Origin: a bacterium
GTDB lineage: Bacteria; Elusimicrobiota; Elusimicrobia; Elusimicrobiales; UBA9959
Assembly (NCBI GenBank): GCA_021811185.1
Contig: JAJZPL010000026.1
Location: 1 to 42,866, forward strand
DNA length: 42,866 bases
Direction: 5' to 3'
Below the pieces are notes generated by a model, which saw only the letters and a program-made list of their open reading frames with translations, was not told where the DNA came from and did not search any database. The position numbers and the translations under genes are program-made. Below, piece after piece: positions 20,338 through 39,556 of this stretch (positions are counted from its first letter, which is position 1; each line of letters opens with the position of its first letter).

Positions 20338-21309
20338 TTACTTTTTGGAACCGGTCTTAATTTTTGCCGCGGCTTTAGCTTCCGCCTTGCGGGCCTTTTC
20401 GAGCTTGGCCAGCAGCACGCGGCCTTCCTCGTGGGCGGGGTTAAGCTTCAGGAGTTCCTGGAGATACCCATAGGCCCCTTCCGTATCCTTGCTCTTGTAG
20501 GCCGAGTCGCCTGCCAGCCAGAGCAGGCCCGCCCTGTCGGAGAAGTCCGCCGCGGGGCCCGTGACGGCGGCGGCCTTGTTCAGGAAAACGGAAGCCTTCG
20601 CATAATCCTTGCCTTCGTAATTTATGCGGCCCTCGGCGTAATCGGCCAGGAAGGCGCCGGCCGGCCCCAGCGCGCGCAGGTCGGAGAGCGTTTTAGAATA
20701 GTCCAGGTTGTTCTTCCAGCGGGCCAGCGCCAGGTTCTCGAGCAGCACTGGGTCGGAATTGCCTTCCTTCAGCAGCAGCTCGTACTCTTTTACCGCCCCG
20801 GCAAAGTCCCCGGCGACGTAGCAGAGCTTGGCCAGCAGCATGCGGGCTTCGGCGTCCTTGGGGAAATTATTCAGGAACTTGCGGTATTCCTGCGCGGCGA
20901 AATCGTAAAGGCCCACGGCCTGGTACATGCTGCCGAGGTAATAGAAGGTGCGCGCGTCGGCCAGGCCCAGCGAGCGGGCGCGCTCCAGGTCCGCGATAGC
21001 TTCTATATAGCGGGTCGGGCCCAGCTGGTACTTGAGGCGGCCGGATTCGGCCAGGGCCTGCATATCGTCGGGATTGGCGGCCAGCACGGGCTGCAGTTCG
21101 GCCAGCCTGCGCTCGGCCTTGGCGGCCTGGATGAACTGGGAAGACGTCCTGGGAAAGTCGGGCGCCGCCCTGTTGGCGCGGCCCATAAAAACGTAAAGCG
21201 CCGCCAGCATGAAGAACAGGAACATGCCCAGCGGCGCTCCGTACGAATGAAGCAGTTTACCGACCGCGCCCTTTAAAACGTTCTGGCGCGGCTCATAACT
21301 CACCTTCAT
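20338..21309 (-). CDS. Membrane-anchored TPR protein
   Basis: 323 residues. N-terminal membrane helix (about 25-43, GAPLGMFLFFMLAALYVFMG), then TPR-like repeats (NPDDMQALAESGRLKYQLG, ADARTFYYLGSMYQAVGLYDFAAQEYRKFL, DAEARMLLAKLCYVAGDFAGAVKEYELLL) and a Lys/Ala-rich tail. It should face the periplasm and act as a protein-interaction platform. The ATG overlaps the end of rpsA by 17 bases, so translation is coupled. Confidence 0.8.
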   Translation of the reverse strand: MKVSYEPRQNVLKGAVGKLLHSYGAPLGMFLFFMLAALYVFMGRANRAAPDFPRTSSQFIQAAKAERRLAELQPVLAANPDDMQALAESGRLKYQLGPTRYIEAIADLERARSLGLADARTFYYLGSMYQAVGLYDFAAQEYRKFLNNFPKDAEARMLLAKLCYVAGDFAGAVKEYELLLKEGNSDPVLLENLALARWKNNLDYSKTLSDLRALGPAGAFLADYAEGRINYEGKDYAKASVFLNKAAAVTGPAADFSDRAGLLWLAGDSAYKSKDTEGAYGYLQELLKLNPAHEEGRVLLAKLEKARKAEAKAAAKIKTGSKK

Positions 21310-22510
21310 CCTCCGAATTTTCCATCAGTATCTGGCCAAGGGTCAGCGAGGGCGAACCCTTGAGATACTGCGCCATGCGCTTGCGGTCTTCCATGTCCTC
21401 GCAGCTCTTGATGGAGAGCGTGAGGCGGAAATTGGAGGTATTGATGCCGACCACCATGGCGGTGACTTCCTGGCCCTCGCGGGGCGCGCCTTCCGCGCCG
21501 TAGCCCTCGGGGGCGATAAAACCTTCCACCATCTCGCTGACCTTGGCGACCGCGCCTTCCGGCGTAACGGAGATGATCCTGGCCTTGATGTGGGACCGGT
21601 AGGCGTACCGGCGCTTTATCATGTCCACGGGATTGGGCATGAGCTGCTTCAGGCCGAAGGAAAGTTTTTCGCCGGCCTTGTCCACGGCCAGGACCTTGCA
21701 CTTAACGCGCTGGCCGCGCTTGTAGGACTTGAGCGCCTCCGCCGTGTTCCGCCAGGCCACGTCCGCCGGGGCCACGAAGCCCTCTATGCCCTGGAACCGC
21801 ACGAACAGGCCCTCTTCGGTGACCTTGGAGACCACGCCGCGGATGATGTGCCCGGGGCCTACTTCGCCCAGCACCTGCGAGCGGCGCTCTTTCTCGTCCT
21901 CTTCCAGCACCTGCCGGCGGGACACGACCACCTTGCGGTCCTTCTCGCTGAAGTCGGTGATGTAGAACTTGATCTTGGCGCCCTGGGGCAGGTAATGCTT
22001 GTGCGCGCCGCCGAGTTCGGAAAGGGACAGCGGCATGAAGGCGCGCATCCCGGAAATGTCCACGATATAGCCGCCCTTCACGAGTTCGGTGACCTTGCCC
22101 TTCACGCGTTCCTTGGCCTCGAACATCTTCTTGGCCATTTCCCAGGCGGCCTTTTCGCGGGCGCGCCGGTGGGACATCATGGTATAGCGGCCTTCGCCGC
22201 CCTTCTTCTCGAGCACGGCCTGCACTTCGTCGCCGGGGACCGGGGTCTTCTCGTCCTGGAAATCGCCCAGCGGGATGGCGGCCTCTTTCTTCTCGCCGAT
22301 GTCGACGAGGACGTACTCGGCGTTCACCTGCACCACGCGCACGGTCACCACGTCGCGCGAATAGATCTTCTCGGACACCTCCGCCTCCGCCTTCAGGAGG
22401 TCGGCCATCGAAAGCTCCTCTTCGGGGCGCTTTTCCGGCTCAGGCTGCGGGACGGGTTCCTTGACGTCCTTTTCCTGGTCTTCGATGTGCTGGGGTTCGT
22501 TGGTTTCCAT
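21293..22510 (-). CDS. rpsA: Ribosomal protein S1 (four S1 domains)
   Basis: 405 residues. After an acidic N-terminus (EPQHIEDQEKDVKEPVPQPEPEK) come four S1 RNA-binding domains at about 52-120, 132-205, 220-290 and 303-372, for example GKVTELVKGGYIVDISGMRAFMPLSL and IRGVVSKVTEEGLFVRFQGIEGFVAPADV. S1 helps the 30S subunit bind mRNA, which matters for messages without a strong Shine-Dalgarno. E. coli S1 has six domains; four or so is common in other phyla. It sits 7 bases after plsC, in the widely conserved cmk-plsC-rpsA neighbourhood, which supports the S1 call over a generic S1-domain protein. Confidence 0.88.
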   Translation of the reverse strand: METNEPQHIEDQEKDVKEPVPQPEPEKRPEEELSMADLLKAEAEVSEKIYSRDVVTVRVVQVNAEYVLVDIGEKKEAAIPLGDFQDEKTPVPGDEVQAVLEKKGGEGRYTMMSHRRAREKAAWEMAKKMFEAKERVKGKVTELVKGGYIVDISGMRAFMPLSLSELGGAHKHYLPQGAKIKFYITDFSEKDRKVVVSRRQVLEEDEKERRSQVLGEVGPGHIIRGVVSKVTEEGLFVRFQGIEGFVAPADVAWRNTAEALKSYKRGQRVKCKVLAVDKAGEKLSFGLKQLMPNPVDMIKRRYAYRSHIKARIISVTPEGAVAKVSEMVEGFIAPEGYGAEGAPREGQEVTAMVVGINTSNFRLTLSIKSCEDMEDRKRMAQYLKGSPSLTLGQILMENSEDEGEL

Positions 22511-22517
22511 GTGGGTA

Positions 22518-23144
22518 CTACTCCTCTGTTATTGAAAAAATGTCCGCCATCAGAGTTTCTGAAAATCGGGCGTAGGCGGCCTTCAGGTCGCCGTCCGCGG
22601 GCGGCTCGAAATATCTCGGGCTGCCGTACTTAATGGTTATTTTACCTAATTTTAAGAACTTATCGGTGTTGAATAATCTGACGGGCAGCACCGGGGCGCC
22701 GGACTTGTGCGCCATCATGGCCACCCCGAGCTTGGGTTTGCCCTTAAGGTCCGGCCCCTTCGAGCGCGTGCCCTCGGGGAAGATGGCCAGGCAGCCGCCG
22801 TCCTTCAGCGCCGCCAGCGCTCCCCGGAGCGCGCCCAGGTCCCCGCCGGCCCGCTTGCGGTCCACCGGGATGCCCCCCCACCTGAGGAAGAACCAGCCGA
22901 AGGGCCAGCGGAACAGCTCGGCCTTGGTCATGATATACGGCAGGCGGACCAGGCCTATGGAGGAAAGCAGGGCGGGAGGGTCGATGTTGGAAAGGTGGTT
23001 GGAAGCGATGATCACCGGGCCTTTCGCCGGGATCTTCTCCAGCCCGATCACGCGGATGGAGCTGACCAGGCGGAGCGTGGTCCGGAAGAAAATATAGACC
23101 AGCCTTAGCAGGACCGGCTGGGTTTTTTCGGGGGATATCGGCAT
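22518..23144 (-). CDS. plsC: 1-Acylglycerol-3-phosphate acyltransferase
   Basis: 208 residues. PlsC makes phosphatidic acid from lysophosphatidic acid at the inner membrane. Acyltransferase motif I is NHLSNID (49-55, the H-x4-D charge relay) and motif III is FPEGTRSKG (122-130). GIPVDRKR (91-98) is the usual motif II position. It lies 6 bases downstream of cmk and 7 upstream of rpsA. The product is the precursor for CDP-diacylglycerol, used by the transferase at 7358. Confidence 0.93.
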   Translation of the reverse strand: MPISPEKTQPVLLRLVYIFFRTTLRLVSSIRVIGLEKIPAKGPVIIASNHLSNIDPPALLSSIGLVRLPYIMTKAELFRWPFGWFFLRWGGIPVDRKRAGGDLGALRGALAALKDGGCLAIFPEGTRSKGPDLKGKPKLGVAMMAHKSGAPVLPVRLFNTDKFLKLGKITIKYGSPRYFEPPADGDLKAAYARFSETLMADIFSITEE

Positions 23145-23150
23145 CTGCTT

Positions 23151-23831
23151 TTATTTTACGGCGGCCTTGAAAAGTTCCACGATGGCCTCTACCACCTGGT
23201 CCCTGGGCACCGAAGTGGAGTCCAGGTAATGGGCGTCGTCGGCCTTCCGCAAAGGGTTGTTCTTGCGCCCGGAATCCTGGGCGTCCCGCTTGACGATGAA
23301 ATCCAGGATCTGGGCGTGGTCGGCCGGCATGCCCTGCTCTTTCAGCTGGCCCACCCGGCGCTTCGCGCGCGCCTCGGGGGAGGCGTCAAGGTAAATTTTG
23401 AGTTCCGCGTCGGGAAAAACGTTGGTGCCGATGTCGCGGCCTTCCATCACCACGCCGCCGGAAAGCCCGGCCTGGCGCTGCATGTCCTTCATGAAAAGCC
23501 GCACGCCGGGCAGCTTGGCTATCGAGGAGGAGGCGCGGCTGACGCTCTCCTCGGAAAGCTCGAGGGCGAGCACTTTCCCGTCGAGCGAGACGTCGGCCTC
23601 GGGGCCGGCCCCCTTCGGGAACTCCCACCGGAGCGAGCGCGCCAGCGCGACGAGCTTTTCGTCGTCCTCCAGGCCCAGGCCGTTGGCCAGCGCCTTCCAC
23701 GCCAGCGCGCGGTACATCTTGCCGGTGCTGATAAAACTGTAGCCGATCCGCTTCGCCACCATCTTCCCGACGGTGGACTTTCCCACCCCGGCCGGGCCGT
23801 CTATCGCTATAACGATGCCGCTCGCCCGCAT
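23151..23831 (-). CDS. cmk: Cytidylate kinase
   Basis: 226 residues from the ATG at 23831. Cmk phosphorylates CMP and dCMP, recycling the CMP released in phospholipid synthesis. The P-loop is GPAGVGKST (12-20). STGKMYRALAWKAL, then VVMEGRDIGTNVFPDAELKIYLDA, and KRDAQDSGRKNNPLRKADDAHYLDST are family blocks. The frame is open 25 codons further upstream but those residues are non-conserved. The ATG at 23829-23831 shares its A with the stop of the preceding kinase gene (TAATG), a sign of translational coupling. Confidence 0.95.
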   Translation of the reverse strand: MRASGIVIAIDGPAGVGKSTVGKMVAKRIGYSFISTGKMYRALAWKALANGLGLEDDEKLVALARSLRWEFPKGAGPEADVSLDGKVLALELSEESVSRASSSIAKLPGVRLFMKDMQRQAGLSGGVVMEGRDIGTNVFPDAELKIYLDASPEARAKRRVGQLKEQGMPADHAQILDFIVKRDAQDSGRKNNPLRKADDAHYLDSTSVPRDQVVEAIVELFKAAVK

Positions 23832-24550
23832 TACCGCGCCACCGCCGTTTTCTTCGGGAGGTTGGCCTCGTTGTCCATGCCCATCTTGCGGAGCGGGCGG
23901 ACCCACTTGGTGAAGGCGGAGGGCTTCAGGGAATATTCGTGCACCAGGCGCACCACCTCGCTGATGGGCTGGTAGCTCTCCCAGTTCAGGCGGAGGATGC
24001 GCACGCCGGCGTCCTCCATCTCCTCGATGAATTCGTAATAGTTCTCCTGCAGGCTCTTCAGGTACGCCGGGTCGATGGCCTTCTCCATGTTGCGGCCGCG
24101 CGACTTGATGCGGGCGATAGAGGTCTCGACGCGGCAGTCGAGGAAGATCATCAGCTGCGGGAACACCATCTCGCGCAGGACCATGTTGTCGAACAGGTCC
24201 AGGTAGGTGTTGTAGTCCATGTCCGAGATGATCTTGTCAGGGTGCCGGTTCAGCATGCGGGCGAAGATGGTATCTTCCCAGATGGTGCGGTCCTGCACCA
24301 CGCCGCGGATCTTGCCGAGGCTGATGCGGGAGACGAACTCGCGGTGCTGGCGGAAGCGGTGGTTCAGCAGCCAGATCTGCATGATGGTGCCGTACTGCTT
24401 CATATCGCCGTAAAAATTTTCCAGGTAGGGGTTGCCGCCGACCTCCTCGAGCACCGGCTCGAAGTTAAGCGCCTTGGCGAGTTCCATCGTGAGCGTGGAC
24501 TTGCCCACGCCTATGATCCCCGCCACGCCGATATAGCCTTCTGCGAACAT
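23831..24550 (-). CDS. Deoxynucleoside kinase (dGK/dAK type)
   Basis: 239 residues. These kinases phosphorylate deoxyadenosine or deoxyguanosine in salvage. P-loop GIIGVGKST (about 11-19), the substrate-base motif QDRTIWEDTIFAR (the DRS/ERD position), and the lid ARIKSRGRNMEKAI are all present. The N-terminal YIGVAGIIGVGKSTL and the length match bacterial dNKs of the Bacillus Dgk/Dck type. A Shine-Dalgarno AAGGAAGG lies before the ATG. Sitting between pilT and cmk, it makes a small nucleotide kinase pair with cmk. Confidence 0.88.
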   Translation of the reverse strand: MFAEGYIGVAGIIGVGKSTLTMELAKALNFEPVLEEVGGNPYLENFYGDMKQYGTIMQIWLLNHRFRQHREFVSRISLGKIRGVVQDRTIWEDTIFARMLNRHPDKIISDMDYNTYLDLFDNMVLREMVFPQLMIFLDCRVETSIARIKSRGRNMEKAIDPAYLKSLQENYYEFIEEMEDAGVRILRLNWESYQPISEVVRLVHEYSLKPSAFTKWVRPLRKMGMDNEANLPKKTAVAR

Positions 24551-25695: not shown

Positions 25696-26853
25696 TTACT
25701 TAAGCCGCCGCGTGCGGTTCTGCAGCCGCAGGTAGGCCGGCTTCTCCACGTCGTCCTCGCGCCCGCCCGCCGCGGAAGAAGCGGAATCCGGCGGGAAATC
25801 GTCCGTGGAGCGGCGCCGCGTGCCGGTGCGGCTCAGCGAGCGCAGCCTGGCCAGGTCGCCGGCCAGCTCGCCGCGGGTGGAAGGGAAGCCGGTGGCGATC
25901 ACGGTTATCTTGATCTCGTCGCCGAGAGTTTCATCGTAGGCCTGGCCGAACTTCACGAAAACGTCGGGGTTGGCGTGCTTCTTGATGTACTCCATCGCCT
26001 CGTCGAGCTCGACGATGCGGATGTCGCGCGAAGCGGTGAAGTTGACGAGCATACCCTTGGCGCCGTCGATCACGGCGTTCTCGAGCATCGGGGAATGAAT
26101 GGCGCCCTTGGCGGCCTCTATATGGCGGTCCGGACCCGAAGCCCGGCCCACGCCGATGAGGGCCTCGCCGGACTTGGTCATGATCTTCCGCACGTCCTGG
26201 AAGTCCACGTTGATGGAGCCGGAGCGCGTGATCACGTCGGAAATGCCCTGGATGGCCTGGCGCAGCACGTCGTCCGCGCGGCGGTAGGCGTCGTTGCTGG
26301 AAGTGTCCCGGTCCACCACCGACAGGATCCTGTCGTTGGGGATCACCAGCAGGCAGTCGGTATGGGTGCGCAACTCCTGGATGCCCGCCTGCGCCTGCTC
26401 GGCGCGCGGCGTGCCCTCGAAACCGAAGGGACGCGTGACCACGCCGATCACCAGCGCGTTGGGATTGTTCTTTTTGGCGGCCTCGGCCACCACGGGAGCG
26501 GCGCCGGTGCCGGTCCCCCCGCCCATGCCGGCGGTTATGAAGAGCAGGTCCGCGTCGGATACGGCTTCTTTTATCAGTTCATAGGATTCCAGCGCGGCCT
26601 CTTTGCCCTTGGCCGGGTCGCCGCCCACGCCCAGGCCCTTGGTGAGGTTCTCGCCGATCTGGATGCGGTTGGGGGCTTTGCTGCGGCGGAGGTCCTGCGC
26701 GTCGGTGTTCACCGCCACGAACTCCACCAGGCGAACGTCGGACTCCACCATGCGGTTGACGGCGTTGCCGCCGCCGCCGCCGACGCCGATGACCTTGATC
26801 ATCGCCTCGCGGTCGTGAAAATCGTTATTGTAGCGTATTCTGTTTTCGGGCAT
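25696..26853 (-). CDS. ftsZ: Cell division protein FtsZ
   Basis: 385 residues, the tubulin-like GTPase of the division ring. The nucleotide-binding GVGGGGGNAVNRMVE (23-37), the tubulin signature GMGGGTGTGAAPVVAE (109-124) and the T7 synergy loop SINVDFQDVRKIM are complete. After a short variable linker the C-terminal peptide EKPAYLRLQNRTRRLK matches the FtsA-binding tail (consensus D-P-hydrophobic-L-R). Placed 66 bases downstream of ftsA. Confidence 0.97.
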   Translation of the reverse strand: MPENRIRYNNDFHDREAMIKVIGVGGGGGNAVNRMVESDVRLVEFVAVNTDAQDLRRSKAPNRIQIGENLTKGLGVGGDPAKGKEAALESYELIKEAVSDADLLFITAGMGGGTGTGAAPVVAEAAKKNNPNALVIGVVTRPFGFEGTPRAEQAQAGIQELRTHTDCLLVIPNDRILSVVDRDTSSNDAYRRADDVLRQAIQGISDVITRSGSINVDFQDVRKIMTKSGEALIGVGRASGPDRHIEAAKGAIHSPMLENAVIDGAKGMLVNFTASRDIRIVELDEAMEYIKKHANPDVFVKFGQAYDETLGDEIKITVIATGFPSTRGELAGDLARLRSLSRTGTRRRSTDDFPPDSASSAAGGREDDVEKPAYLRLQNRTRRLK

Positions 26854-26919
26854 AGGAAATCGGCTCGAAGCGCCCGGCGGCGTGAAAGGCCCAGCCGGCG
26901 CTCACCTGCTCAGCGTTCT

Positions 26920-28152
26920 TTAAAACAAATCCTTGAACCAGCGCCAGACCTTCTTTTCCATGGAGCCGCCGCGCGCCGGGCCCGGCACGTCGGTGTTCCA
27001 CGCTTTAAGGTGCGGGTAGCACACCAGCGCCACCGCACCGAGGTAGGACTGGGTCATATATTCCTCGGGGCACTGCAGGATCTCCTGCGCGGGCAGGCCC
27101 AGCCTGGCCTGGCGCAGGTCAAGCAGCTCCTCCGCGGCCTCGGGCATACCTTTAAGCAGCGAGCCGCCGCCGGTAAGGATGGCCCCGCCGGGGAGCTCCG
27201 CGTAGTTGGACACCTGCACAAACTGGTTTATCTTCTCGAAAATTTCCTCGGCGCGCGGCTGGATGAAATCGAGCAGCTCGCGGGGCTTCACTTCCTTCTT
27301 CGTCCTGGCGTCCAGCCTGGTGATGTTGATCAGCTTGTCCTCTTCTATCATGGTGGACAGCACGGCGCCGTATTTTTCCTTGATCTCCTGCGCCACGGCC
27401 ATCGTGGTCCCCAGGCCGTAGGCGATGTCGCGGGTGATATGGTCGCCGCCGATGGCTATCTCTTTGGAGAAATGAATGCTGCCCTCGGAGTAGATGCCTA
27501 TGGAGGTGGTCTGGCCGCCGGAGTCTATCAGCAGGCAGCCCAGGTCCTTTTCCTCCTCGGAAACCACCAGCTCTCCGACGGCGAGCAGCGTGTAGATGGT
27601 GTCCACCACGCGGAAGCCGCCCTTGGAGACGGACTTCATCAGGTTATTGATGATCGGGCTGGAGGCGGTCACGATATGCACGCCCACTTCGAGCAGGGCG
27701 CCTTCCATGCCGATCGGGTTGGGCACGCCGCGCTGGCGGTCCAGCGAGAAGCCCTGCGGGATCACGTGCAGGATCTCGTGGTCGGGCGAGAGCTGGATGG
27801 TCTTGGCGCTCTCGATGACGTTCGCCACGTCCTCGCTGGTTATTTCCTTGTCGGTGCGGGCTATGTTATAACCGCCCCGATTGTCGAAAGCGTTGATGTG
27901 GGAGCCGCGCACGCCGAGGTAGACCTCGCCTACGACCTCGTTGGCCTTGCTCTCGGCTGCGTCCATCACGTGCTCCACGGCGCGGGCCGTCTCCTCGATG
28001 TTGACTACAACGCCGCCCTTGAGGCCTTTGCAAGGCGCGGAGGCGCCGGCCAGCACGCGTATCTTATTATGCTCTTCGTCGCGCTCGGCTATGACGCAGG
28101 TAACCCGGCTGGAACCCATGTCTAGGCCGGCGATAATTTCAGATTTTCCCAT
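26920..28152 (-). CDS. ftsA: Cell division protein FtsA
   Basis: 410 residues. It is an actin-like ATPase that anchors FtsZ to the membrane. Phosphate 1 motif GLDMGSSRVTCVIAE, then LIDSGGQTTSIGIY (phosphate 2) and ILTGGGSLLKGM (adenosine) are present, as is the 1C subdomain (about 85-165). The C-terminal KKVWRWFKDLF is an amphipathic membrane-targeting helix. I set the start at the ATG at 28152, which has GGAG 8 bases upstream. An in-frame TTG at 28164 would add MELL but lies within that ribosome site. Confidence 0.96.
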   Translation of the reverse strand: MGKSEIIAGLDMGSSRVTCVIAERDEEHNKIRVLAGASAPCKGLKGGVVVNIEETARAVEHVMDAAESKANEVVGEVYLGVRGSHINAFDNRGGYNIARTDKEITSEDVANVIESAKTIQLSPDHEILHVIPQGFSLDRQRGVPNPIGMEGALLEVGVHIVTASSPIINNLMKSVSKGGFRVVDTIYTLLAVGELVVSEEEKDLGCLLIDSGGQTTSIGIYSEGSIHFSKEIAIGGDHITRDIAYGLGTTMAVAQEIKEKYGAVLSTMIEEDKLINITRLDARTKKEVKPRELLDFIQPRAEEIFEKINQFVQVSNYAELPGGAILTGGGSLLKGMPEAAEELLDLRQARLGLPAQEILQCPEEYMTQSYLGAVALVCYPHLKAWNTDVPGPARGGSMEKKVWRWFKDLF

Positions 28153-30372: not shown

Positions 30373-30400
30373 AAAAACCCCGCAACCGCGGGGTTTTTTT
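30373..30400 (+). terminator. Bidirectional terminator between pilin and response regulator genes
   Basis: Stem AAAAACCCCGC / GCGGGGTTTTT with loop AACC. T tracts flank it on both strands, so it serves the pilin gene (plus) and the operon ending at 30417 (minus). Confidence 0.93.
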
Positions 30401-30416: not shown

Positions 30417-31637
30417 TCAGTAGCGGCGTATCAATTCGGACTTGCCGGCCTCGGCAAGTACAGGCAGGCCATCCCGCGCCAGCCATAGCCTGCCGTTCTT
30501 CCAGGCGAAGGCCGAAAGAGGATACCCGGAACGCGCCGTCTTAAGAGTAAAACTCCCGTCCGGGGTAAGGCTGTCGTCCAGTTTATGGCGGTAGATCATC
30601 CCGGTAGAGGAGACGGCCGTCCAGAGATAACGGCTATCCTTGAAGATCTGATCCGGCTTTTCAGGCAAGCGAAAGGAAGCCGCGGGGGCAAGTTCCGGAT
30701 CCGGGCGACGCAGAACTGCGTTCCCGGCGCTGTCGCAGGTCCAAAGGTATTCGCCGTCGTAAAAGAGCGCGGAAACCTTGCCCGGCATCGGGAAAGATTT
30801 AAGGAGCGGGAGGCCCGGGGCAAGGCGCCTGGCTTCTACCACGCTGCGCCAGGAATCGGCGACGTAAAGCGTGTCGCCGGCCACCGCCAGGCCGCTAATA
30901 TGTGTCTTCTCCAGCTGGTAGCTCTGGTCCAGTTTAAGACCGTCCCTGCCTGCGGAGTACACGTAAACGGCCCCGGCCAGCCAGTCACCTGCAAGGAGCT
31001 TGTCCCCCTGCCAGACCAGCGCGGAGATATTCGCGGCGGCTCCCGGGTATTCCCGGTAGTAATCCGCGTGCCCGGCTACGAAAGCGCGGTATAGCCCGCC
31101 CAGCGCCAGCAGCCCCGCCAGCACGAACGCCGAGCTGACCGCGGCTTTCCTGTACTTCCAGGGCTTGGCCGGGGCGGCATGGCGGGGAACGCCGGCTTCC
31201 GGGGCCGGCCAGGCCGGGACCGGGACGACGGGCGGCTCGCTGCGCGGCAGTACGGGCTGGCGTTTGGGAGGCACGGGCACACCGTGCACGAATTTCTTTA
31301 CGGTAGCCACCAGCTGCGCGTTCTCGAAAGGTTTCTGCAGGTATTCGCTGGCGCCAAGCTTCATCACGTCCACGGCGGACTGGATATGCCCGTAACCGGT
31401 GATCATCACCACGGGCACCGTTTCGTCTATTTGCTTCAGCCCGGCCAGCACCTCGATCCCGTCCATCCCGGGCAGGCGCAGGTCCAGCAGCACCAGGTCC
31501 GGCCGGTCAGCCCTGGCCATCGCCAGCGCGGAAGGCCCGTCGCCGGCCTCGAAAACTTCATAGCCGCGGAGTTTAAGGACGTTGCGCACCGCGAGGCGCA
31601 TGTCGGGTTCATCGTCGATAATAAGTATACGTGACAT
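30417..31637 (-). CDS. Response regulator receiver joined to a membrane helix and an outside beta-propeller
   Basis: 406 residues. A complete receiver domain (1-120): acidic pair Asp8/Asp9, phospho-acceptor Asp52 in LLDLRLPGMDG, Thr80 in MITG and Lys102 in LQKPF. A Pro/Ala-rich linker (118-160) leads to a basic patch KPWKYRKA and one membrane helix (about 166-185). Residues 200-406 form propeller-like blades (ISALVWQGDKLLAGDWLAGAVYVYS, ISGLAVAGDTLYVADSW, VSALFYDGEYLWTCDSAGNAVLRR, YLWTAVSSTGMIYRH). By the positive-inside rule the receiver is cytoplasmic and the propeller periplasmic. This is the reverse of normal sensing and has no DNA-binding output. It starts 6 bases after the histidine kinase gene, its obvious partner. 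Confidence 0.85.
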   Translation of the reverse strand: MSRILIIDDEPDMRLAVRNVLKLRGYEVFEAGDGPSALAMARADRPDLVLLDLRLPGMDGIEVLAGLKQIDETVPVVMITGYGHIQSAVDVMKLGASEYLQKPFENAQLVATVKKFVHGVPVPPKRQPVLPRSEPPVVPVPAWPAPEAGVPRHAAPAKPWKYRKAAVSSAFVLAGLLALGGLYRAFVAGHADYYREYPGAAANISALVWQGDKLLAGDWLAGAVYVYSAGRDGLKLDQSYQLEKTHISGLAVAGDTLYVADSWRSVVEARRLAPGLPLLKSFPMPGKVSALFYDGEYLWTCDSAGNAVLRRPDPELAPAASFRLPEKPDQIFKDSRYLWTAVSSTGMIYRHKLDDSLTPDGSFTLKTARSGYPLSAFAWKNGRLWLARDGLPVLAEAGKSELIRRY

Positions 31638-31643
31638 AATTCC

Positions 31644-34600
31644 TCAAACTTCGGGCAATTCCATGACGGCCCTGGCGCCGCCGCCGGCCACGCTGAAGAG
31701 GTCCAGCGAGCCGCCGTGGGCTTTGGCCACGTTCCGGGCCAGGGTAAGCCCCAACCCCATCTTGCCTGGCCGGGTGGTGAAGAACGGGTGGAAAACGGAA
31801 TCGAGGTTCTTCTTTTCTATCCCTTCTCCGCCGTCGGTGATCTCAAGGCGCTGTTTGCCTCCGGCCGAGGAGATCCGTATCGCCAGCTCCCCCCCGCCGG
31901 GCATGGCTTCCACGGCGTTGGCCAGCAGCTGTTCCACGGCCGCCGCCAGCCGCACCCTGTCCACACTGAGCGGCTTAAGGTCCCCCGCGGCGATAATGCC
32001 GGCCTTTATGCCTTCCAGCCGGCCCGCGCCGCGCAGGCGCTCCAGTTCCTCGGCGGCGATGGCCTGCAGCAGCTCCGGGGAGCGCTGGGGGATCACCGGC
32101 CGGGAAAAATTCATGATCTTGTCGATCTTATTCTGCAGCCCGACGATATTGCGGACGATCACCGCCAGCGACTCGCGGGCGCCTTCGGCCTCCGGTGCCT
32201 CGGCGCAGAATTCCGCGTGGCTGCGGATGATGCTGATGGAATTGGCAACCTGGTGCGCCACGCCGGCCACCAGTTCCTCGAAGTCGGGCAGGTACCCCGG
32301 GGCGCCGGCGGACTTGCCGCGCTGTTTAAGCTCCTCGAAATCCCCTCCCAGCTTTTTCATGCGGGAGCTTAGCTCGGCCAGCATCTTTTCCTTGATGACC
32401 AGCTTTTCCTCCGCTTCCCTGACCGCGGCGCGGTAGGGCCGGGACTTCAATTCTTCCCGCAATTTCTTTTCCCGTGCCTGCAGTTCGTCTTTTTCTATCC
32501 TGGCTTCTTCCAGTTCCGCGCGGAGCTTGTTGAGATCCTTCTCATTCTTGTCCAGCTGCCGCTCCGCTTCCGAGATCCTGGCGGAATTTTCCGGCGCGGC
32601 TTTGCGGCGGACAACCGACAGCAGCGCCTGCTTTTCACGGCGGAGCTCCTCTGCCTCTTCCTTAAGTTCCCTTTCGGCGGCGGAAAGTTTGGCCAGTTCG
32701 GAATCGCGTTCCAGCACGCGCGCCTGCGCCTCTTCAATAAGCTCGTTCTCGGCCTGGATCTCGCGCGCGTACTTCTCGTTAAGCGCCAGCCGGCTGCGCC
32801 GCAGCAGGGAGCATTCGTTCTCCAGGCCGGTCAGCGCCCCGCGCGCTTCCTTAAGCTCGAGTTCTTTAGCTTTCAGCAGGGCCCCGGCGTTCTGCATCTG
32901 CTCCGAAAGTTTTTCGTAGCGGGCTTTTTCCTGTTCTGCCGCACCCGCGGCCGCGTTCTCCATGGACTGAAGATAGGCCCGCAGCGCCGCCGCCTCGGTC
33001 TGGGCGGCGGTCCTGGCCGAGCGCTCCTCCTGAAGTTCTATCTCTTTCTTTTTCAGCAGCGCGTCGGTTTCCCTGGCCTTTTCGAAGAGCTGCGCGCTGC
33101 GTTCGCGCTCCGAATCCGCGGCGCCGGAAAATCCGTTCTCAACGGTCTCCAGCCGCGCGCGCAGCGAAGCGGCTTCGGTGGCGGCCGCGGTTTTTTCACG
33201 GGCAACGGCGTCCCTGGAAAGCATAAGATCGTCGTATTTGCGGAGCAGGTCCGTATACTTGGCTGCCTGCTCGTCCAGCGAGGCCAGCAGCCCCGCGGCC
33301 TCGCCGTCCCTGGCCACGGCCTCGCGCGAAGCCAGGCCCGCGGCGGTGGTCTCCGCCTTTATCGCGGCGGCGCGGAACTTGTCGCGTTCTGACTCCAGCG
33401 TCTTGATGCGGCCGGAGTTTATCTCGTTCTCGTTCTCGGCGGCCCTCAGTTTGGAAACGTAATTATGGAGCTGGGCGGTGGAGAACTTCCACTTTTCCTC
33501 CGCTTCCTCCAGTTCCTTCAAAAGCGCCTGCTCGCGGCCGCGCAGCGAATCGGCTTCGGACCGGGCGGCGGACCTTTCCCGCGCCAGGGCCTCTCCGGAA
33601 AGCATAAGGGCGTCGTACTTGCGCATGAGGTCGGCGTACTTGGCCGACTGCTCCTCGAGCGCCGCCAGCAGGCCCGCGGCCTCGCCGTCCCTGGCCACGG
33701 CCTCGCGCGAAGCCAGTTCGGACGCGGCGGCCTCGGCCTTTATGGCGGCGGCGCGGAACTTGTCGCGCTCGGCTTCCAGCGTTTTAACGCGGCTGACTTC
33801 GATCTCGTTCTCGTTCTCCGCGGCCCGCAGTTTGGAAACGGCGTTATGCAGCTGGGCGGAGGCGAGTTTCCACTTCTCCTCTGCCTCCTCGATATCCTTT
33901 AAAAGCGAGTTTTCCCTGCCGCGCAGCCCGGCCAGCTCCTCATCCTTCCTGCGGAGCTCCGACTGGGCGGAACTGAGGGCGGCCTGCGAAGCCCTGAATT
34001 TTTCCAGGCTTTCGGAAGACCGCTCGGCAAGTTCCAGTTCCAGCTCCTCGATGCGCGCGGAAAGCGCCGCCGCCATTTCCCTGGCCCGTTCGGCGTTCTC
34101 GCGCCCGCGCCCGCTCCTGAGCGCCTCGGCCTCGGCGGCCAGGTCGCGCGCGCGCTGGTTGGCCGCCTTAAGCTGGGCCTCTTTTTCCGCCAGGGCGGCC
34201 CGGGATTCATCAAGCAGCCTGCCCTTGTGCGCGGCGTCTTCCAGAGCTTCGTCCAGGCGGGTCCCGGCGGCGGACAGCTTGCGTTCCAGGTCGCCGGTGC
34301 GTTTGGCCTGTTCCTTAAGATCGTTCTTTATCAGCTCAAGTTTGAGGGAGAAGCCCTCCTCGGAACGCGCGGAGTCGCGGGCGGCCTGCTCCAGGCCCTG
34401 CTCCAGGCTTTCCCGCATCTTCGAAATCGCGCGCAGCTGCGCGTCTTTTTCCTTTACGGCCGCGCGCTCGGCCGAGAGTTCGGCCTTGAGCTCTTCCATC
34501 GCGCGCCAGACCTTTTCCCCTTCCGCTTCCTTGTCCTTTACCGCGGAGCGGGAACTGCTGATGAAGAGGTCCTTCTCGGCGGAACGCGCCTTTTCCTCGT

Positions 34601-34910
34601 CCAGGAGCCGCGAGACGGACTCGAGCCGGCCGACCAGGTCGTTCCGCTCGGCGGCAAGGGCCGCGGACCGGAGGCTCTCTTCGGAAAGGGAGGAGCGCGT
34701 TTCCTGCAGCGCGGCCGACAGGGAGGCTTCCTGCTCGGCCAGGCGCGCGGCGGCGGACTCCGCGGCGGCCCTGGCTTCGCCCAGTTCCGTCTCGAGTTCC
34801 ACGAACCTTGAAGAATAGCCCTGCTCCTTTTCGTGAAGTTCGGAAAGGAAGCCCTCCAGTTCGGAGTTAAGGCCCTTCAGGTCGCCTAGCCCGCTTACTT
34901 GCTCTTCCAT
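31644..34910 (-). CDS. Giant coiled-coil histidine kinase
   Basis: 1088 residues, no signal or membrane helix. Residues 1 to about 865 are Ala/Glu/Arg/Lys-rich heptad-type coiled coil, including a 127-residue tandem duplication. The last 218 residues are a full kinase: H-box ELVAGVAHQVANSISIIRSHAEF with His886, N-box EQLLANAVEAMPGGG (Asn998), G1 ITDGGEGI (Asp1026), F-box VFHPFFTTRPGK and G2 MGLGLTLA (about 1052). The HQxxN form resembles the NtrB-type (HPK4) group. There is no PAS, GAF or HAMP sensor. The coiled coil itself must provide input or location. The ATG overlaps the upstream coiled-coil gene by 16 bases. Confidence 0.9.
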   Translation of the reverse strand: MEEQVSGLGDLKGLNSELEGFLSELHEKEQGYSSRFVELETELGEARAAAESAAARLAEQEASLSAALQETRSSLSEESLRSAALAAERNDLVGRLESVSRLLDEEKARSAEKDLFISSSRSAVKDKEAEGEKVWRAMEELKAELSAERAAVKEKDAQLRAISKMRESLEQGLEQAARDSARSEEGFSLKLELIKNDLKEQAKRTGDLERKLSAAGTRLDEALEDAAHKGRLLDESRAALAEKEAQLKAANQRARDLAAEAEALRSGRGRENAERAREMAAALSARIEELELELAERSSESLEKFRASQAALSSAQSELRRKDEELAGLRGRENSLLKDIEEAEEKWKLASAQLHNAVSKLRAAENENEIEVSRVKTLEAERDKFRAAAIKAEAAASELASREAVARDGEAAGLLAALEEQSAKYADLMRKYDALMLSGEALARERSAARSEADSLRGREQALLKELEEAEEKWKFSTAQLHNYVSKLRAAENENEINSGRIKTLESERDKFRAAAIKAETTAAGLASREAVARDGEAAGLLASLDEQAAKYTDLLRKYDDLMLSRDAVAREKTAAATEAASLRARLETVENGFSGAADSERERSAQLFEKARETDALLKKKEIELQEERSARTAAQTEAAALRAYLQSMENAAAGAAEQEKARYEKLSEQMQNAGALLKAKELELKEARGALTGLENECSLLRRSRLALNEKYAREIQAENELIEEAQARVLERDSELAKLSAAERELKEEAEELRREKQALLSVVRRKAAPENSARISEAERQLDKNEKDLNKLRAELEEARIEKDELQAREKKLREELKSRPYRAAVREAEEKLVIKEKMLAELSSRMKKLGGDFEELKQRGKSAGAPGYLPDFEELVAGVAHQVANSISIIRSHAEFCAEAPEAEGARESLAVIVRNIVGLQNKIDKIMNFSRPVIPQRSPELLQAIAAEELERLRGAGRLEGIKAGIIAAGDLKPLSVDRVRLAAAVEQLLANAVEAMPGGGELAIRISSAGGKQRLEITDGGEGIEKKNLDSVFHPFFTTRPGKMGLGLTLARNVAKAHGGSLDLFSVAGGGARAVMELPEV
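33159..33920 (-). repeat. 381-bp tandem duplication inside the kinase coiled coil
   Basis: Two adjoining 127-codon units (33920-33540, then 33539-33159, minus strand). Both begin GRE..LLK..EEAEEKWK and share blocks such as VSKLRAAENENEI and ASREAVARDGEAAGLLA. They differ at scattered residues, so the duplication is not recent. Confidence 0.88.
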
Positions 34911-37900
34911 GTCTTGAATTTTTCCTTAAGCTGTTCCACCAGCTTCTGCGTGCGGACGAACTCCTCCTGCTTTTCGCGCAGCGCCGAGCGGGAGGTTTCC
35001 GCCAGCAGCTCCGCGTCCGCGCGTTTCTTGCGCTCGTCCCCGAAAGCCGCCTTCAGGCGGTCCACCGCGTGGCGCAGGGCCTCTATCTCCGACTTCTGCT
35101 CGGCGAGGTCCTCGGCTTTATCGGCCAGGGAAGTCCTCAGCACGAGCATCTCGGAAACCAGCGTCTTCTCCCTGAGCGACATTTCCTTCACGCGCTTCTC
35201 GTAATCGTCCTGCAGCGCGCGGGAGGCCAGACCTGCCTCGTTCTTGCCGGCGCGCTCCGCTTCCACGGAAGCCTTGAGGCGCTCGGCCATGCCGCGGGCC
35301 TCGTCGGCCTCCGACTTATGCTTCTCCGCCTGCAGGTCCTTGGCGTTGGCCGAGTCCCTGAGGGCGGAGATCTCCGCGAGCAGGGCTTTTTCCTTCTGCA
35401 CGAACTCGAACGCCTTGCGCTCCACCACGGACTGGACTTCGCGGCGCTCGGCCTCGAGCTGCTTGCCGGCCGAAGCCTTAGCCTCGGCGATATCCTGGTC
35501 CCTGCGCTGCATCTCGGAGCGCAGCAGTTCGCCGTCGCGCTTGAGGGCCTCGATCTGCTTGTCCCTGGAAGCCTTCTGCTCCTCCGCGCCCCGCAGGCGC
35601 AGCATCAGGTCGTTATATTTCTTCTCGGCTTCCTTCACGCCCTGCTCGAACGCGGACTTGAAGTCGTCGTATTCGGAGCGCACGTCCCGGTAATCCTTTT
35701 CCCTGGCGGCCAGCCTGGCGGAGAGCGCCGAGATCTGGTCCGAAGCCGCCTTTCTTTCCTGCGCGAGCTCGGTCTGCAGCGCGGCGAGCTGGAGCTGCCT
35801 CTCGTCGGAAGTCTTCTTAAGGACCTCGAAGCGGGACAGCGTTTCCGCCAGCTTGGAGCGGAAATCCTCCAGAGTTTTGCGGTAGGAGTCGTCCTGGGTC
35901 TGGCGCAGCTGCGAAGCCGCTTCCAGCTCGTGGTTCTTGCGCTGGATGATCTCGTTGTAGCGGTCGGCTTCCTTGCGGAGAGCGGCGTCCAGCCTGATGC
36001 TTGCGGAGGTTTCTTCCTCGGCCAGCCTCACCGAAAGGGCCGTAAGCTTTTCCTCGAGGGCGCGCCTTTCCCCGGCGAAACCGGCGGCGGCGGCCTCCTT
36101 GTTGGCGCCGGCTTTGGCGAGCGCTTCCTTGGCGCGCAGCAGCTCCGCGTCCCTGGCGGCGAGCTCCTCGTCCATGGCTTTCTCTTTCTCGGCGTAAAGC
36201 CGCTGCAGGCGCTCGCGCTCCAGCAGCATCAGCTCTTCCCTTTCCAGCTTAGCGGCCTCTACGGCGCGGGCCAGTTCGGCTATCTTGGAATCGCGCAGGC
36301 GGATGGTGTCGGCGAGCCCCGCGGCCTTGTCCTCCAGCTCGGCGGCGGCCCTGGTGCGTTCCTCGGCCACGGCCGTTTTCAGTTCCTCGCCGGCCTTCTG
36401 GCGGGCCAGCTTCATATCCTCGCCGGCCTTCTGCAGCATCAGGCGCAGGGAATTGACCTCTTCGTCCTTGCGGCCCAGTTCGGAAGCGAACTCCATGGAA
36501 CGGCCTTCCAGCTCGGAGGCGAAGCGCTGCTTCTCGTTCGAAACCTTCTTTTCCCAGTGCATGGCCTCTTCGGACAGCTTGTGCTCGAATTCGGCCTTGA
36601 GCTTGGCCCTGAGGGTGGCCTGCTCGGCCTGGGAACGCTCGGAAGCGGCCTCCAGTTCGCGGCGGAGGGCGGCCTGCTGTTCCTTGCCGGCGGCCTTCTC
36701 CTTGGAAAGCTCTTCCATCTCCCGGCGCAGGTGGGCGATCTCCTCCACCTTCAGGCGGAGGCTGTCTTCGTAGATGCGTCCGGCGGTGTCGATCTCGGAG
36801 CGCAGCGCGCCGGTGTGCTTCTCCATCTCCACCTTCAGACGCACGTCGTATTCGGACTGCAGCTGTTTTTCGCGGAAGGAGAATTCCTCCAGCTTCACGT
36901 TGTACTGCGTCTGCAGCTGCTCGATCTTGTGCGAGAAAGCGTCGCGCTCGCCCTGCAGGGTCTTGATGGTCTCTTCGAAAGTCTTGAGGTTGCGCTGCAG
37001 GTAGTCTATCTCGTCCTGGCGCTTGACCATGTCGTCGCGGTAGCCGTGCTCGATCTCCTGCAGCTTCTCGGCAAAGCGGTTGCGCTCGTGCTCCACGGCG
37101 ATCTTGAGGCGCTTGGGGATCTCCGCCTCCATTTCCCGGTAATGGTTCTTTTCCGCTTCCAGCGCGTCGGCGGTCTTGGACAGGCGGGCCTCGTAATCCG
37201 CCTGCTGGTGCTTCTTCTCCGTCTCCATCGTGCGGATCACGCCCTCGAGGCTGGCCATGGCGTCTTTATAGCGGGAGAGGTCCTCGTCGCGGCGCCTTAC
37301 GGCCTCGGGCAGTTCGCGCAGCTGTTTCTCGAGCAGCGACAGCTTCACCTTGTAATCGTCGATTTCCTGGTTCTTCTCCAGGATCTTCCTGTCCACTTCC
37401 AGGTCCTTCTGCTTCAGGGCGCGCTCCCGGTCCTCGGCTTCTTTCTGAAAGCTGTCCTTGGCCCACTTCAGCATGGCCTCCTGCTTCTTCAGCTCGTCGC
37501 CGACCGAGCGCTCGCGCTTCTCCAGCTCCTCCACCCTGTTCTGGAAAGTAAATTCAAGGGAAGCCTTCTGGGACGAGAGTTCCTCGTCCATCTTCTTCTT
37601 CTCGGCTTCCAGGCGCGAGGCGTACACGCGCTCGAATTCCTGCTGCTTGGACATCTGCTCCTGGCGCAGCTGCCAGAGTTCCCCCTCCACCTGGGCCCAG
37701 CGGCCGCGCAGCTCCTCGGATTTCTTCTGGTAATCGTCCGCCATGCGCAGTTCTTTCTGCTTCAGGGTCTCCTCGCTCTTCGAGATCTTGTCCTCCAGCT
37801 CCTTCTCGCGCTCGGTGAGGCGCTCCAGGCGGGAACGGAACTGGTACTCGAGGGAATCCTGGCGGGATTTCATCTCCTCTTCGTGCACGCGGGTGCCGCG

Positions 37901-38104
37901 CTCTATTTCGGAATTCTTGGCCTTGAGCTGGTTCTCGAGGAAGGTCACCTGGCTGGATTTCTCCTGCAGGTTCTGGCGGATCTTGAGGTCTTCTTCGTGG
38001 TAGCCGCGGATCTTGTCCAGCGCCCAGCGCAGCGCCAGGCGTGCTGTCTCCACGTCGTTTATGGCCTGCTCGTTAAGCGAGGCTTCGTCGAATTTCTCGT
38101 TCAT
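34895..38104 (-). CDS. 1069-residue coiled-coil protein
   Basis: Nearly the whole chain is predicted coiled coil, rich in Glu, Lys, Arg and Ala with few Gly or Pro. No P-loop, signal peptide or membrane helix is seen. The only non-coil part is the N-terminus (MNEKFDEASLNEQAINDVETARLALRWALDKIRGYHEED), which may be a small docking domain. An unbroken rod of this length would be roughly 150 nm, so a scaffold or filament former (as with crescentin- or AglZ-like proteins) is likelier than an enzyme. It lies between the PorV-LysM gene and the coiled-coil kinase and overlaps the latter by 16 bases, so both rods are probably made together and may bundle. Confidence 0.8.
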   Translation of the reverse strand: MNEKFDEASLNEQAINDVETARLALRWALDKIRGYHEEDLKIRQNLQEKSSQVTFLENQLKAKNSEIERGTRVHEEEMKSRQDSLEYQFRSRLERLTEREKELEDKISKSEETLKQKELRMADDYQKKSEELRGRWAQVEGELWQLRQEQMSKQQEFERVYASRLEAEKKKMDEELSSQKASLEFTFQNRVEELEKRERSVGDELKKQEAMLKWAKDSFQKEAEDRERALKQKDLEVDRKILEKNQEIDDYKVKLSLLEKQLRELPEAVRRRDEDLSRYKDAMASLEGVIRTMETEKKHQQADYEARLSKTADALEAEKNHYREMEAEIPKRLKIAVEHERNRFAEKLQEIEHGYRDDMVKRQDEIDYLQRNLKTFEETIKTLQGERDAFSHKIEQLQTQYNVKLEEFSFREKQLQSEYDVRLKVEMEKHTGALRSEIDTAGRIYEDSLRLKVEEIAHLRREMEELSKEKAAGKEQQAALRRELEAASERSQAEQATLRAKLKAEFEHKLSEEAMHWEKKVSNEKQRFASELEGRSMEFASELGRKDEEVNSLRLMLQKAGEDMKLARQKAGEELKTAVAEERTRAAAELEDKAAGLADTIRLRDSKIAELARAVEAAKLEREELMLLERERLQRLYAEKEKAMDEELAARDAELLRAKEALAKAGANKEAAAAGFAGERRALEEKLTALSVRLAEEETSASIRLDAALRKEADRYNEIIQRKNHELEAASQLRQTQDDSYRKTLEDFRSKLAETLSRFEVLKKTSDERQLQLAALQTELAQERKAASDQISALSARLAAREKDYRDVRSEYDDFKSAFEQGVKEAEKKYNDLMLRLRGAEEQKASRDKQIEALKRDGELLRSEMQRRDQDIAEAKASAGKQLEAERREVQSVVERKAFEFVQKEKALLAEISALRDSANAKDLQAEKHKSEADEARGMAERLKASVEAERAGKNEAGLASRALQDDYEKRVKEMSLREKTLVSEMLVLRTSLADKAEDLAEQKSEIEALRHAVDRLKAAFGDERKKRADAELLAETSRSALREKQEEFVRTQKLVEQLKEKFKTWKSK

Positions 38105-38140
38105 AATTTTATCCGCGGCGCGCGCCGCTCCTCGTGCACT

Positions 38141-39556
38141 TTACGGGATCACCAGCACCTGGCCCGGCTTCACCTCGCCGCCGCGGCCCACGGCCCCGGA
38201 GTTGGCGCGGTAGATCTCGGGCCAGCGTTCGGGGTCGCCGTAAACCCTGGAGGCGATGCTCTCCAGCGTGTCGCCGTCCTTTACCATATAGCTCTTGCGC
38301 GCGGCCGGCTGCTGGGGCTGGGGCTTGGGCTGCGGCTTTACCGCGGCCGGCTTGACGGCGGCGCGGGACTTTATGCCCTGCATCTCGGCGCGCGACTTTT
38401 CTAGCTCCGCCTTAAGGGCTTCGATCTGGCTCTGTATTTCGGGCGGCGCCTGCTGAGCGGCCTGGGCCGGAACCGGCGCTGCCTGTACGGCTGCGGGAGC
38501 CGCTTTAGCCGCGGCGTCCAGTTTTTCCTGCAGCGCGCGGAGTTTCTCTTCCTGCAGCGCGGCCTTGTCCTGCACGGCGCGCAGCTCGGCGGCGGCGGCG
38601 GCCTCGGAAGCGGTAAGCGCTTCGGCTTCGGGCCCGAAGCGGAAGGAGAAAGCCAGGCGGTGGGAGCCCATGGTGCCGGAGATCCCGCCCAGCGGCAGGC
38701 TGAAAGAGTAATCGAACTCGGCCAGGCCGAAACGGCCGCCGAAACCCATGTTGACGCTGCGGCGGGAATTATTCCCGGCGACAAGGCCCATGCGGAGCGC
38801 GAAGTTGCGCTGGAAGGAATATTCCGCGCCGGCGGCGGCGGTAAAATCGGAACCGGCCAAGGAGGCGTCCAGGTCCACCAGGCTGGTCTTCATCAGGTAG
38901 GAGGCGCCGGCGTGCACCTGCACCGGCAGGCGGTCGGCGGAATCGAGGCCGAGGTCGGGGCGGTTGAGGTTCTTCAGGGAAAGCCCGAGCGCGTACTTGG
39001 GGGCGGGCCGGTAGAAAAAGCCCAGGTCCGCGCCAAGGGCGGCCTTGGAGTAGCCGCCTGCGAAAACCGGGTCCACGGCGGTATAGGCGTCGGAAACGTA
39101 GCTGCGGCGCATGTACTTGAGCGTAAGCCCGGCGCCGATGCCCTTGTAGACCGAGGTGGCGTAGCTGACCGAGTAGGAGGTTTCGGCGAAGGCGTCGCTC
39201 AGGCGGGTGTCGTTCCAGGAGAACCCGGCGGCGCCAGGCAGGAAACCCTTCACCGGCGCGGCGAAAGCGAAATAGCCCTGCCCTATCTTGGAATCGTCGG
39301 TGAGGCCGGAGTACAGCTTGCCGTAAACGGCGGTAAGTTCGGGGGCGGTGGTTTCAAGCAGGGACGCGGGGTTGGAGCACATGGCCTCCGAGCCGCCGGC
39401 GACGGCGGTAAAAGCGCCGCCCATGGCGGCAGCCCTTGCTCCGCAGGCGGAATCGTTGAAAGAAGCGTTTGCTTTCATATAAGCGAACACCACAACGGAA
39501 ATAATGACCGTCAGCCGTTTTGCCACAATTACAATTTTAGCTTCTGGCTGTTTCAT
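38141..39556 (-). CDS. PorV/PorQ-like outer-membrane barrel with C-terminal LysM domain
   Basis: 471 residues. Signal-anchor-like N-terminus (LTVIISVVVFAYMKANA). The mature start ACGARAAAMGGAFTAVAGGSEAMCSNPASL is the classic opening of PorV/PorQ/FadL-like barrels. The barrel runs to about residue 305 (ends HRLAFSFRFG). Then come a coiled-coil and Ala/Gln/Pro linker (about 315-415) and a LysM domain (421-471, YMVKDGDTLESIASRVYGDPERWPEIYRAN... LVIP) that should bind peptidoglycan. In Bacteroidota PorV shuttles type IX secretion cargo; the LysM fusion would tether such a barrel to the wall. 36 bases upstream of the coiled-coil gene. Confidence 0.82.
   Translation of the reverse strand: MKQPEAKIVIVAKRLTVIISVVVFAYMKANASFNDSACGARAAAMGGAFTAVAGGSEAMCSNPASLLETTAPELTAVYGKLYSGLTDDSKIGQGYFAFAAPVKGFLPGAAGFSWNDTRLSDAFAETSYSVSYATSVYKGIGAGLTLKYMRRSYVSDAYTAVDPVFAGGYSKAALGADLGFFYRPAPKYALGLSLKNLNRPDLGLDSADRLPVQVHAGASYLMKTSLVDLDASLAGSDFTAAAGAEYSFQRNFALRMGLVAGNNSRRSVNMGFGGRFGLAEFDYSFSLPLGGISGTMGSHRLAFSFRFGPEAEALTASEAAAAAELRAVQDKAALQEEKLRALQEKLDAAAKAAPAAVQAAPVPAQAAQQAPPEIQSQIEALKAELEKSRAEMQGIKSRAAVKPAAVKPQPKPQPQQPAARKSYMVKDGDTLESIASRVYGDPERWPEIYRANSGAVGRGGEVKPGQVLVIP

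Follow-up and report, generated by a model that had tools for sequence, protein, structure and literature searches.

The cytoplasm is where response regulators are assumed to do their work. The locus analysed here, in a 42,866-nt contig of an Elusimicrobiota bacterium (hereinafter the window), raises the question of whether a two-component system can be run outward, with a receiver connected across the inner membrane to an effector outside the cytoplasm, an arrangement that would give bacteria direct phospho-control of the periplasm. An earlier note on this DNA had proposed such a pair, and the two open reading frames that it gave, of 406 and 1088 residues (aa), are both present (Table 1). We favour the reading that the pair forms a functioning two-component system in which the regulator exerts its effect across the inner membrane, with signals flowing from the inside out; to this reading we assign a probability of slightly over one half (about 0.52).

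Table 1. Features of the regulator-kinase operon and of its two signalling proteins (positions in the window).
Feature	Position	Strand	Evidence or remark
Regulator gene, 406 aa	30417-31637	-	ORF list
Receiver (REC), residues 1-117	31287..31637	-	Response_reg 112 bits at residues 4-113 (Pfam)
Phospho-acceptor D52; T80; K102	31482-31484; 31398-31400; 31332-31334	-	By alignment; acidic pair D8/D9
Pro-rich disordered linker with basic patch next to membrane, residues 118-164	31146..31286	-	pLDDT <50 at 127-140 and 142-163
Single membrane helix, residues 166-185 (model helix 166-191)	31083..31142	-	Kyte-Doolittle 1.85; AlphaFold model
Five-bladed propeller, residues 193-406, inferred periplasmic	30420..31061	-	AlphaFold model
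Kinase gene, 1088 aa	31644-34910	-	ORF list
Coiled-coil rod, residues 1-865, ~127-residue internal repeat	32316..34910	-	Heptad z 9.6; helix-only model
DHp and ATPase core, residues 866-1088	31647..32315	-	Pfam; His886 (32253-32255), N-box Asn998, G boxes
Second long coiled-coil protein, 1069 aa	34895..38104	-	Heptad z 11.3; 16-base overlap with kinase gene
PorV-like barrel with C-terminal LysM, 471 aa	38141..39556	-	PorV family 65.4 bits (cut-off 90); LysM 29.3 bits (Pfam)
Secreted-looking protein with C-terminal T9SS-type sorting domain, 722 aa	39597..41765	-	CHU_C 31.1 bits, above cut-off 27
Terminator-like hairpin, 11 pairs, 3' of the operon's last gene	30373..30398	-	Length and place only

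Regulator and kinase are the last two genes of a five-gene operon that runs in a single direction from 41765 to 30417 and encodes, in order, the sorting-domain protein, the PorV-like barrel with LysM, the long coiled coil, the kinase and the regulator, with intergenic gaps of 40, 36, -16 and 6 bases, the last of which separates the pair. The earlier note missed this envelope operon, as it did the varied inputs of the propeller family described below. The barrel protein has a hydrophobic N-terminal segment, and in the sorting-domain protein TIGR04183 scores 22.6 bits, slightly under its cut-off of 23, with TIGR04131 also under cut-off. As 17 terminator-like sites were found compared with 15.8 in shuffles, it is length and place only that support the hairpin beyond the operon. 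Further downstream lie a convergent pilin gene and then ftsQ, ftsA, ftsZ and pilT. The close relatives L013, L017, L020, L022, L026, L029, L031, L032, L034 and L035 have a further response regulator and histidine kinase, in inverted orientation, located between the pilin gene and ftsQ; L028 has the regulator only, and the window has neither. Elsewhere in the window, long open frames antisense to the coiled-coil gene (35069-38404, +) and to ftsA/ftsZ (25975-28125, +) most likely reflect codon bias, and a 239-aa protein (23831-24550, -) with weak nucleoside-kinase-like matches is 92-96% identical in relatives, above FtsZ.

The composite architecture of the regulator, REC, membrane helix and propeller, is supported by Pfam, hydropathy and an AlphaFold model of the 406-residue protein. 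Alignment confirmed the complete receiver that had been claimed, with D52, T80 and K102 accompanied by D8 and D9. A cognate kinase gene adjoins that of the regulator. Hydropathy peaks at residues 165-183 (Kyte-Doolittle 1.85, compared with 1.14 for the next best segment of the protein), and the model (pLDDT 88.4, pTM 0.60) comprises REC at residues 1-117, a low-confidence stretch at 127-163, a helix at 166-191 and the propeller at 194-405. The proposal that the propeller faces the periplasm is a prediction from the positive-inside rule, the sole evidence here, the net charge of the 15-residue helix flanks being +5 on the N-side and 0 on the C-side.

The modelled propeller fold is of the five-bladed glutaminyl-cyclase type. 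It shares this fold with the five-bladed glutaminyl cyclases but not a family sequence match: no cyclase family was found in Pfam at E 0.01 or among the best 25 of 102 families in NCBIfam. A sequence search of the PDB gave no significant match for the propeller (best E 0.3), and Foldseek against viral proteins returned generic propeller and receiver matches and nothing more. Response_reg is the sole Pfam match of the regulator at E 0.01, which leaves it with no known output domain, a feature not required of every response regulator.

The partner kinase had been described as soluble and sensor-less, with about 865 residues of coil followed by an intact catalytic core. Our analysis bears this out, the core being of DHp/ATPase type with the His and the N and G boxes. 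The heptad signal of residues 1-865 lies 9.6 sd above window-wise shuffles, compared with 4.9 sd for a control barrel protein with its own short coil, and the segment contains 2 prolines. Motif copies at 360/487 and 431/558 define the internal repeat, which suggests how rod length may change. The AlphaFold model, of modest confidence (pLDDT 66.5, pTM 0.27), shows helix alone at residues 8-867, followed by the core. In Pfam, the core matches HATPase_c with 70.1 bits and HisKA with 22.7 bits, under the cut-off of 26.9, and H886 and N998 are without variation in a 14-sequence kinase alignment. The kinase thus has the DHp His and the HATPase_c domain with N and G boxes of an orthodox histidine kinase but not its sensor or membrane segment, neither of which was recognisable by Pfam, NCBIfam or the model (top hydropathy 0.99).

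A scan of genome contigs, which reaches close relatives only, provided 28 close relatives of the locus (L009-L036). A kinase gene lies within 600 bases of the regulator in all 27 untruncated relatives (L009-L034 and L036), L035 having been dropped from this count because a contig end cuts its locus, and this recurring pairing argues against chance neighbours. Such a chance arrangement, or a mis-called segment in which an orphan receiver carries a hydrophobic stretch and has nothing to do with the kinase, could appeal to the moderate score of the membrane helix in the window protein (1.85) and to nothing else; with architecture and gene order conserved in relatives and a confident model of the regulator, we consider it very improbable.

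All five operon genes are present in order in 16 of the 28 relatives. The stretch of L032 begins after four of the five have been seen, and those of L009, L015, L022, L027, L028, L031, L034 and L035 start too close to the pair for operon order to be read. L025 has an upstream LysM fragment alone; L030 has neither a barrel nor a sorting-domain gene over 4.8 kb; and in L036 the sorting-domain gene and a kinase of 231 aa are present but the barrel and rod genes are missing. The kinase is split over two frames in L030 and L031. The acidic pair, D52 and K102 of the receiver are kept in the 27 full-length relatives, L030 having Met at the T80 position. By 15-residue net charge, the flank before the helix is more positive than that after it in 23 of 29 proteins (the window regulator and 28 relatives), equal in 5 and less positive in 1.

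The window pair has an NtrX/FixJ-like receiver and an NtrB/AtoS-like core in common with ordinary histidine kinase-response regulator pairs, with scores far below the model cut-offs (NtrX, 99 bits, equivalog cut-off 600; AtoS, 140 bits, cut-off 646). It differs from them in that the regulator crosses the membrane and has no DNA-binding or enzyme output, and in that the kinase is soluble and rod-like. The PorX/PorY system likewise ties a response regulator to a PorV-type envelope system; PorX, which has a PglZ domain, is not membrane-spanning, whereas the window regulator itself carries the envelope part. The PorX model scores 65.2 bits against the regulator, on REC alone (cut-off 300). Excerpts of work on type IX secretion in Bacteroidota describe PorX as binding the inner-membrane subunit PorL (PMC5005315). 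LapD, according to excerpts of two papers, is likewise a case in which events in the cytoplasm alter a periplasmic module on the other side of the inner membrane (PMC3032553, PMC3032545); there the driving signal is c-di-GMP, whereas in the window system it would be phosphotransfer to the receiver. In line with the earlier note, no system with the same wiring is described in the literature searched, reviews on output domains being a place that might hold one, and nothing alike appears in excerpts of an archaeal two-component census (PMC5847659) and of PMC7031533.

Across the phylum, the propeller profile matches at least 115 of 294 Elusimicrobiota genomes. We examined 134 propeller genes at 128 loci (those of the 28 close relatives and 100 further regions from among the stronger matches listed). 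Of these, L035, whose contig is cut, and L158, which duplicates the record of L036, were set aside, leaving 132 genes. With receivers designated intact when they have the acidic pair, D52 and K102, whatever the residue at T80, and decayed when they match the iterated profile and miss the catalytic set, 56 genes have an intact receiver, 35 a decayed one and 41 no receiver by the iterated profile, TPR and coiled-coil forms being among the last. Pfam places the decayed receiver under cut-off in L151, L215 and L211 and does not see it in L154 and L201. The membrane helix and propeller recur behind intact receivers, decayed receivers, TPRs (by Pfam in L145; read from sequence in L140, L141 and L148) or coiled coils, several hundred coiled-coil residues standing directly ahead of the helix in some versions; in the 690-aa coiled-coil forms, a remnant receiver may precede the helix.

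In 125 of 132 proteins, the 60 residues ahead of the propeller include a hydrophobic segment with a score of 1.5 or more. When 20 residues outside the uncharged core are counted, the receiver side of the helix carries more Lys and Arg than the far side in 101 of 132, the same number in 16 and fewer in 15; by a cruder 15-residue net-charge count, the N flank is more positive in 78 of 127. The occurrence of the same membrane helix and propeller behind varied inputs suggests that what stays constant is the propeller, with phosphotransfer as just one among several ways of controlling it from the cytoplasm; the receiver form would be the phospho-controlled version of the propeller effector.

Outside the phylum, the propeller profile gave weak partial matches in 7 of 40 genomes (best 52.9 bits, covering 56-196 of 214 positions), with none confirmed in viral contigs and no match in plasmids. 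These 40 genomes were picked for query-like receivers rather than at random and the contig scan was limited to close relatives, so the apparent restriction of the propeller to Elusimicrobiota is provisional. Family f2, of the same order and with small listed genomes (1.1-2.3 Mb), is not represented among the matches listed for the 115 propeller genomes.

The long coil of the kinase partner is variable: among complete-looking genes, with contig-cut genes set aside, family kinases range from 217 to 2545 aa. The four shortest (217-231 aa) have no rod, which argues that the rod is not essential to the system. At the other extreme, the kinase genes of L163, L130, L123, L121, L119 and L120 encode 2078-2545 aa with N-terminal parts that are 94-100% coil-like by a simple measure.

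Presence of a kinase gene follows the state of the receiver. A same-strand kinase lies within 600 bases of 51 of the 56 intact receivers, compared with 4 of 35 decayed receivers and 10 of 41 genes without one; the intact exceptions are L142 (twice), L143, L175 and L176, and both L142 receivers have a kinase nearby on the opposite strand. In the wider phylum alone the contrast is 25/30 intact versus 4/35 decayed (Fisher p = 3e-9, with L158 still included and genes treated as independent, which they are not).

The catalytic residues of the two partners are associated as well. Among 64 readable pairs (L009 and L034, on cut contigs, were excluded from the His count), 48 have both the kinase His and an intact receiver, 2 the receiver only, 1 the His only and 13 neither. 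An intact receiver stands beside a His-replaced kinase in L025 (Asn) and L029 (Arg), both close relatives, and the single His-only pair is L177, whose receiver retains D52 and K102. In pairs without an intact receiver, the His is replaced in 13 of 14, by Lys (7), Arg (3) or Gln (3), each in one clade; for L151, L206 and L211 the His column is an alignment gap and Gln was read from the sequence. The ATP-site Asn, Asp and two Gly are retained in all 66 kinases read out, and seven His-less kinases scanned with Pfam match HATPase_c (59.9-74.1 bits) and not HisKA, a missing HisKA match not being taken as loss of the His because the L121 kinase has the His yet no Pfam HisKA. On the tree, receiver state changes at least 6 times, and the comparison of His with receiver yields 1 independent pair by starred branches and 3 by all branches, too few for a sign test to attain significance; striking as the association is, few independent events lie behind it. 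Given this link between the chemistry of receiver and kinase, the two proteins of the window are likely to engage in phosphotransfer.

The same pairs bear on a split sensor working from the outside in, wherein the propeller senses the envelope, the receiver, decayed receiver or TPR part docks and sets the activity of the soluble kinase, and the true output is a different regulator or the coiled-coil proteins. PknD has a cytoplasmic signalling domain, one membrane helix and an extracytoplasmic propeller that acts as sensor, and the propeller here might equally be one, although PknD-type proteins are Ser/Thr kinases and the window protein has a receiver instead. The window kinase has no recognisable sensor of its own, and ten receiver-less propeller proteins, all in two TPR-type clades, still adjoin a kinase-like gene. 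The kinases of those ten loci have, however, lost the His and so could not supply the phosphate for a pathway of the ordinary kind, and where the His is kept the phospho-acceptor set of the receiver is kept in 48 of 49 pairs, which points to real transfer. That a kinase can read the state of its regulator has a precedent in DivL of Caulobacter, presented in excerpts of PMC4211667 as a kinase-like protein without the usual role and with reversed information flow; it is comparable to the His-less relatives only, not to the window kinase. Taken with the retained chemistry, we regard the outside-in arrangement as rather unlikely.

Of the 132 propeller genes, 97 have a LysM or PorV gene no more than 9 kb away on their own strand (LysM 90, PorV 74, both 67); for comparison, the genome of the window contains 3 Pfam LysM matches over 3.09 Mb, including the one in the operon, and 22 PorV-family matches. 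Many of the 35 genes without such a neighbour are close to contig ends, and in a block of 12 coiled-coil forms that group together in the tree LysM/PorV truly seems absent in the stretch seen. For 42 of the 132, a sorting-domain gene is located no farther than 9 kb away. Three partial SprA matches fall in one 1795-aa frame of the same genome (G000:C31, ~20784-23699; best 77.7 bits, cut-off 200), and SprA-like matches, none above cut-off, occur in 254 of 294 phylum genomes irrespective of whether the propeller is present, which rules SprA out as a discriminating partner; the phylum as a whole seems to have a divergent SprA-like protein. The GldM/PorM motor gave no match in the genome of the window, where controls likewise failed to match.

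This envelope neighbourhood is also what a trans-envelope tether would display, that is, a structural link from the cytoplasmic rods through the inner membrane to the LysM/PorV complex, whose assembly phosphorylation tunes and whose decayed versions have a structural role alone. The 31 decayed-receiver genes without an adjacent kinase fit it, 30 of them having a same-strand LysM/PorV gene no more than 9 kb away, as do the hundreds of coiled-coil residues before the membrane helix in some versions and the rods in both the kinase and its upstream neighbour. That none of the 27 full-length relatives has lost the acidic pair, D52 or K102 is more than a tether would require, and the four short kinases run the system without a rod; we judge a mainly structural role unlikely, though, like the split sensor, a serious contender. 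A constant helix and propeller near LysM/PorV, combined with a variable cytoplasmic part, suggests an effector with exchangeable inputs and favours outward signalling.

In the inside-out reading that we prefer, the soluble rod kinase would autophosphorylate on His886 and pass the phosphoryl group to Asp52 of the receiver. Phosphorylation would alter the oligomeric state or contacts of the receiver, a change that the single helix would relay to the arrangement of the periplasmic propellers, which may in turn act on the PorV-like barrel/LysM and sorting-domain proteins of their own operon, with the rods as a candidate cytoplasmic scaffold. More tentatively, and as a possibility that falls somewhat short of probable, these proteins may be lineage-wide transmembrane regulators in which rod-kinase phosphorylation drives a propeller controlling the PorV/LysM complex, the effector having been repeatedly rewired (decayed receiver, TPR, coiled coil) and some His-less kinases being ATP-switched. 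If true, this would be a two-component system run outward, and it would tie the PorV-like/LysM envelope proteins of a poorly cultured phylum to a regulatory system.

Natural versions with and without receiver chemistry or the kinase His leave the contribution of phosphorylation open to comparison. The genome of the window itself encodes two further membrane-helix propeller proteins, L154 (C27, 7444-8583) and L155 (C25, 5386-7125), one with a decayed receiver beside a PorV/LysM gene and the other with a coiled coil beside a PorV-like gene.
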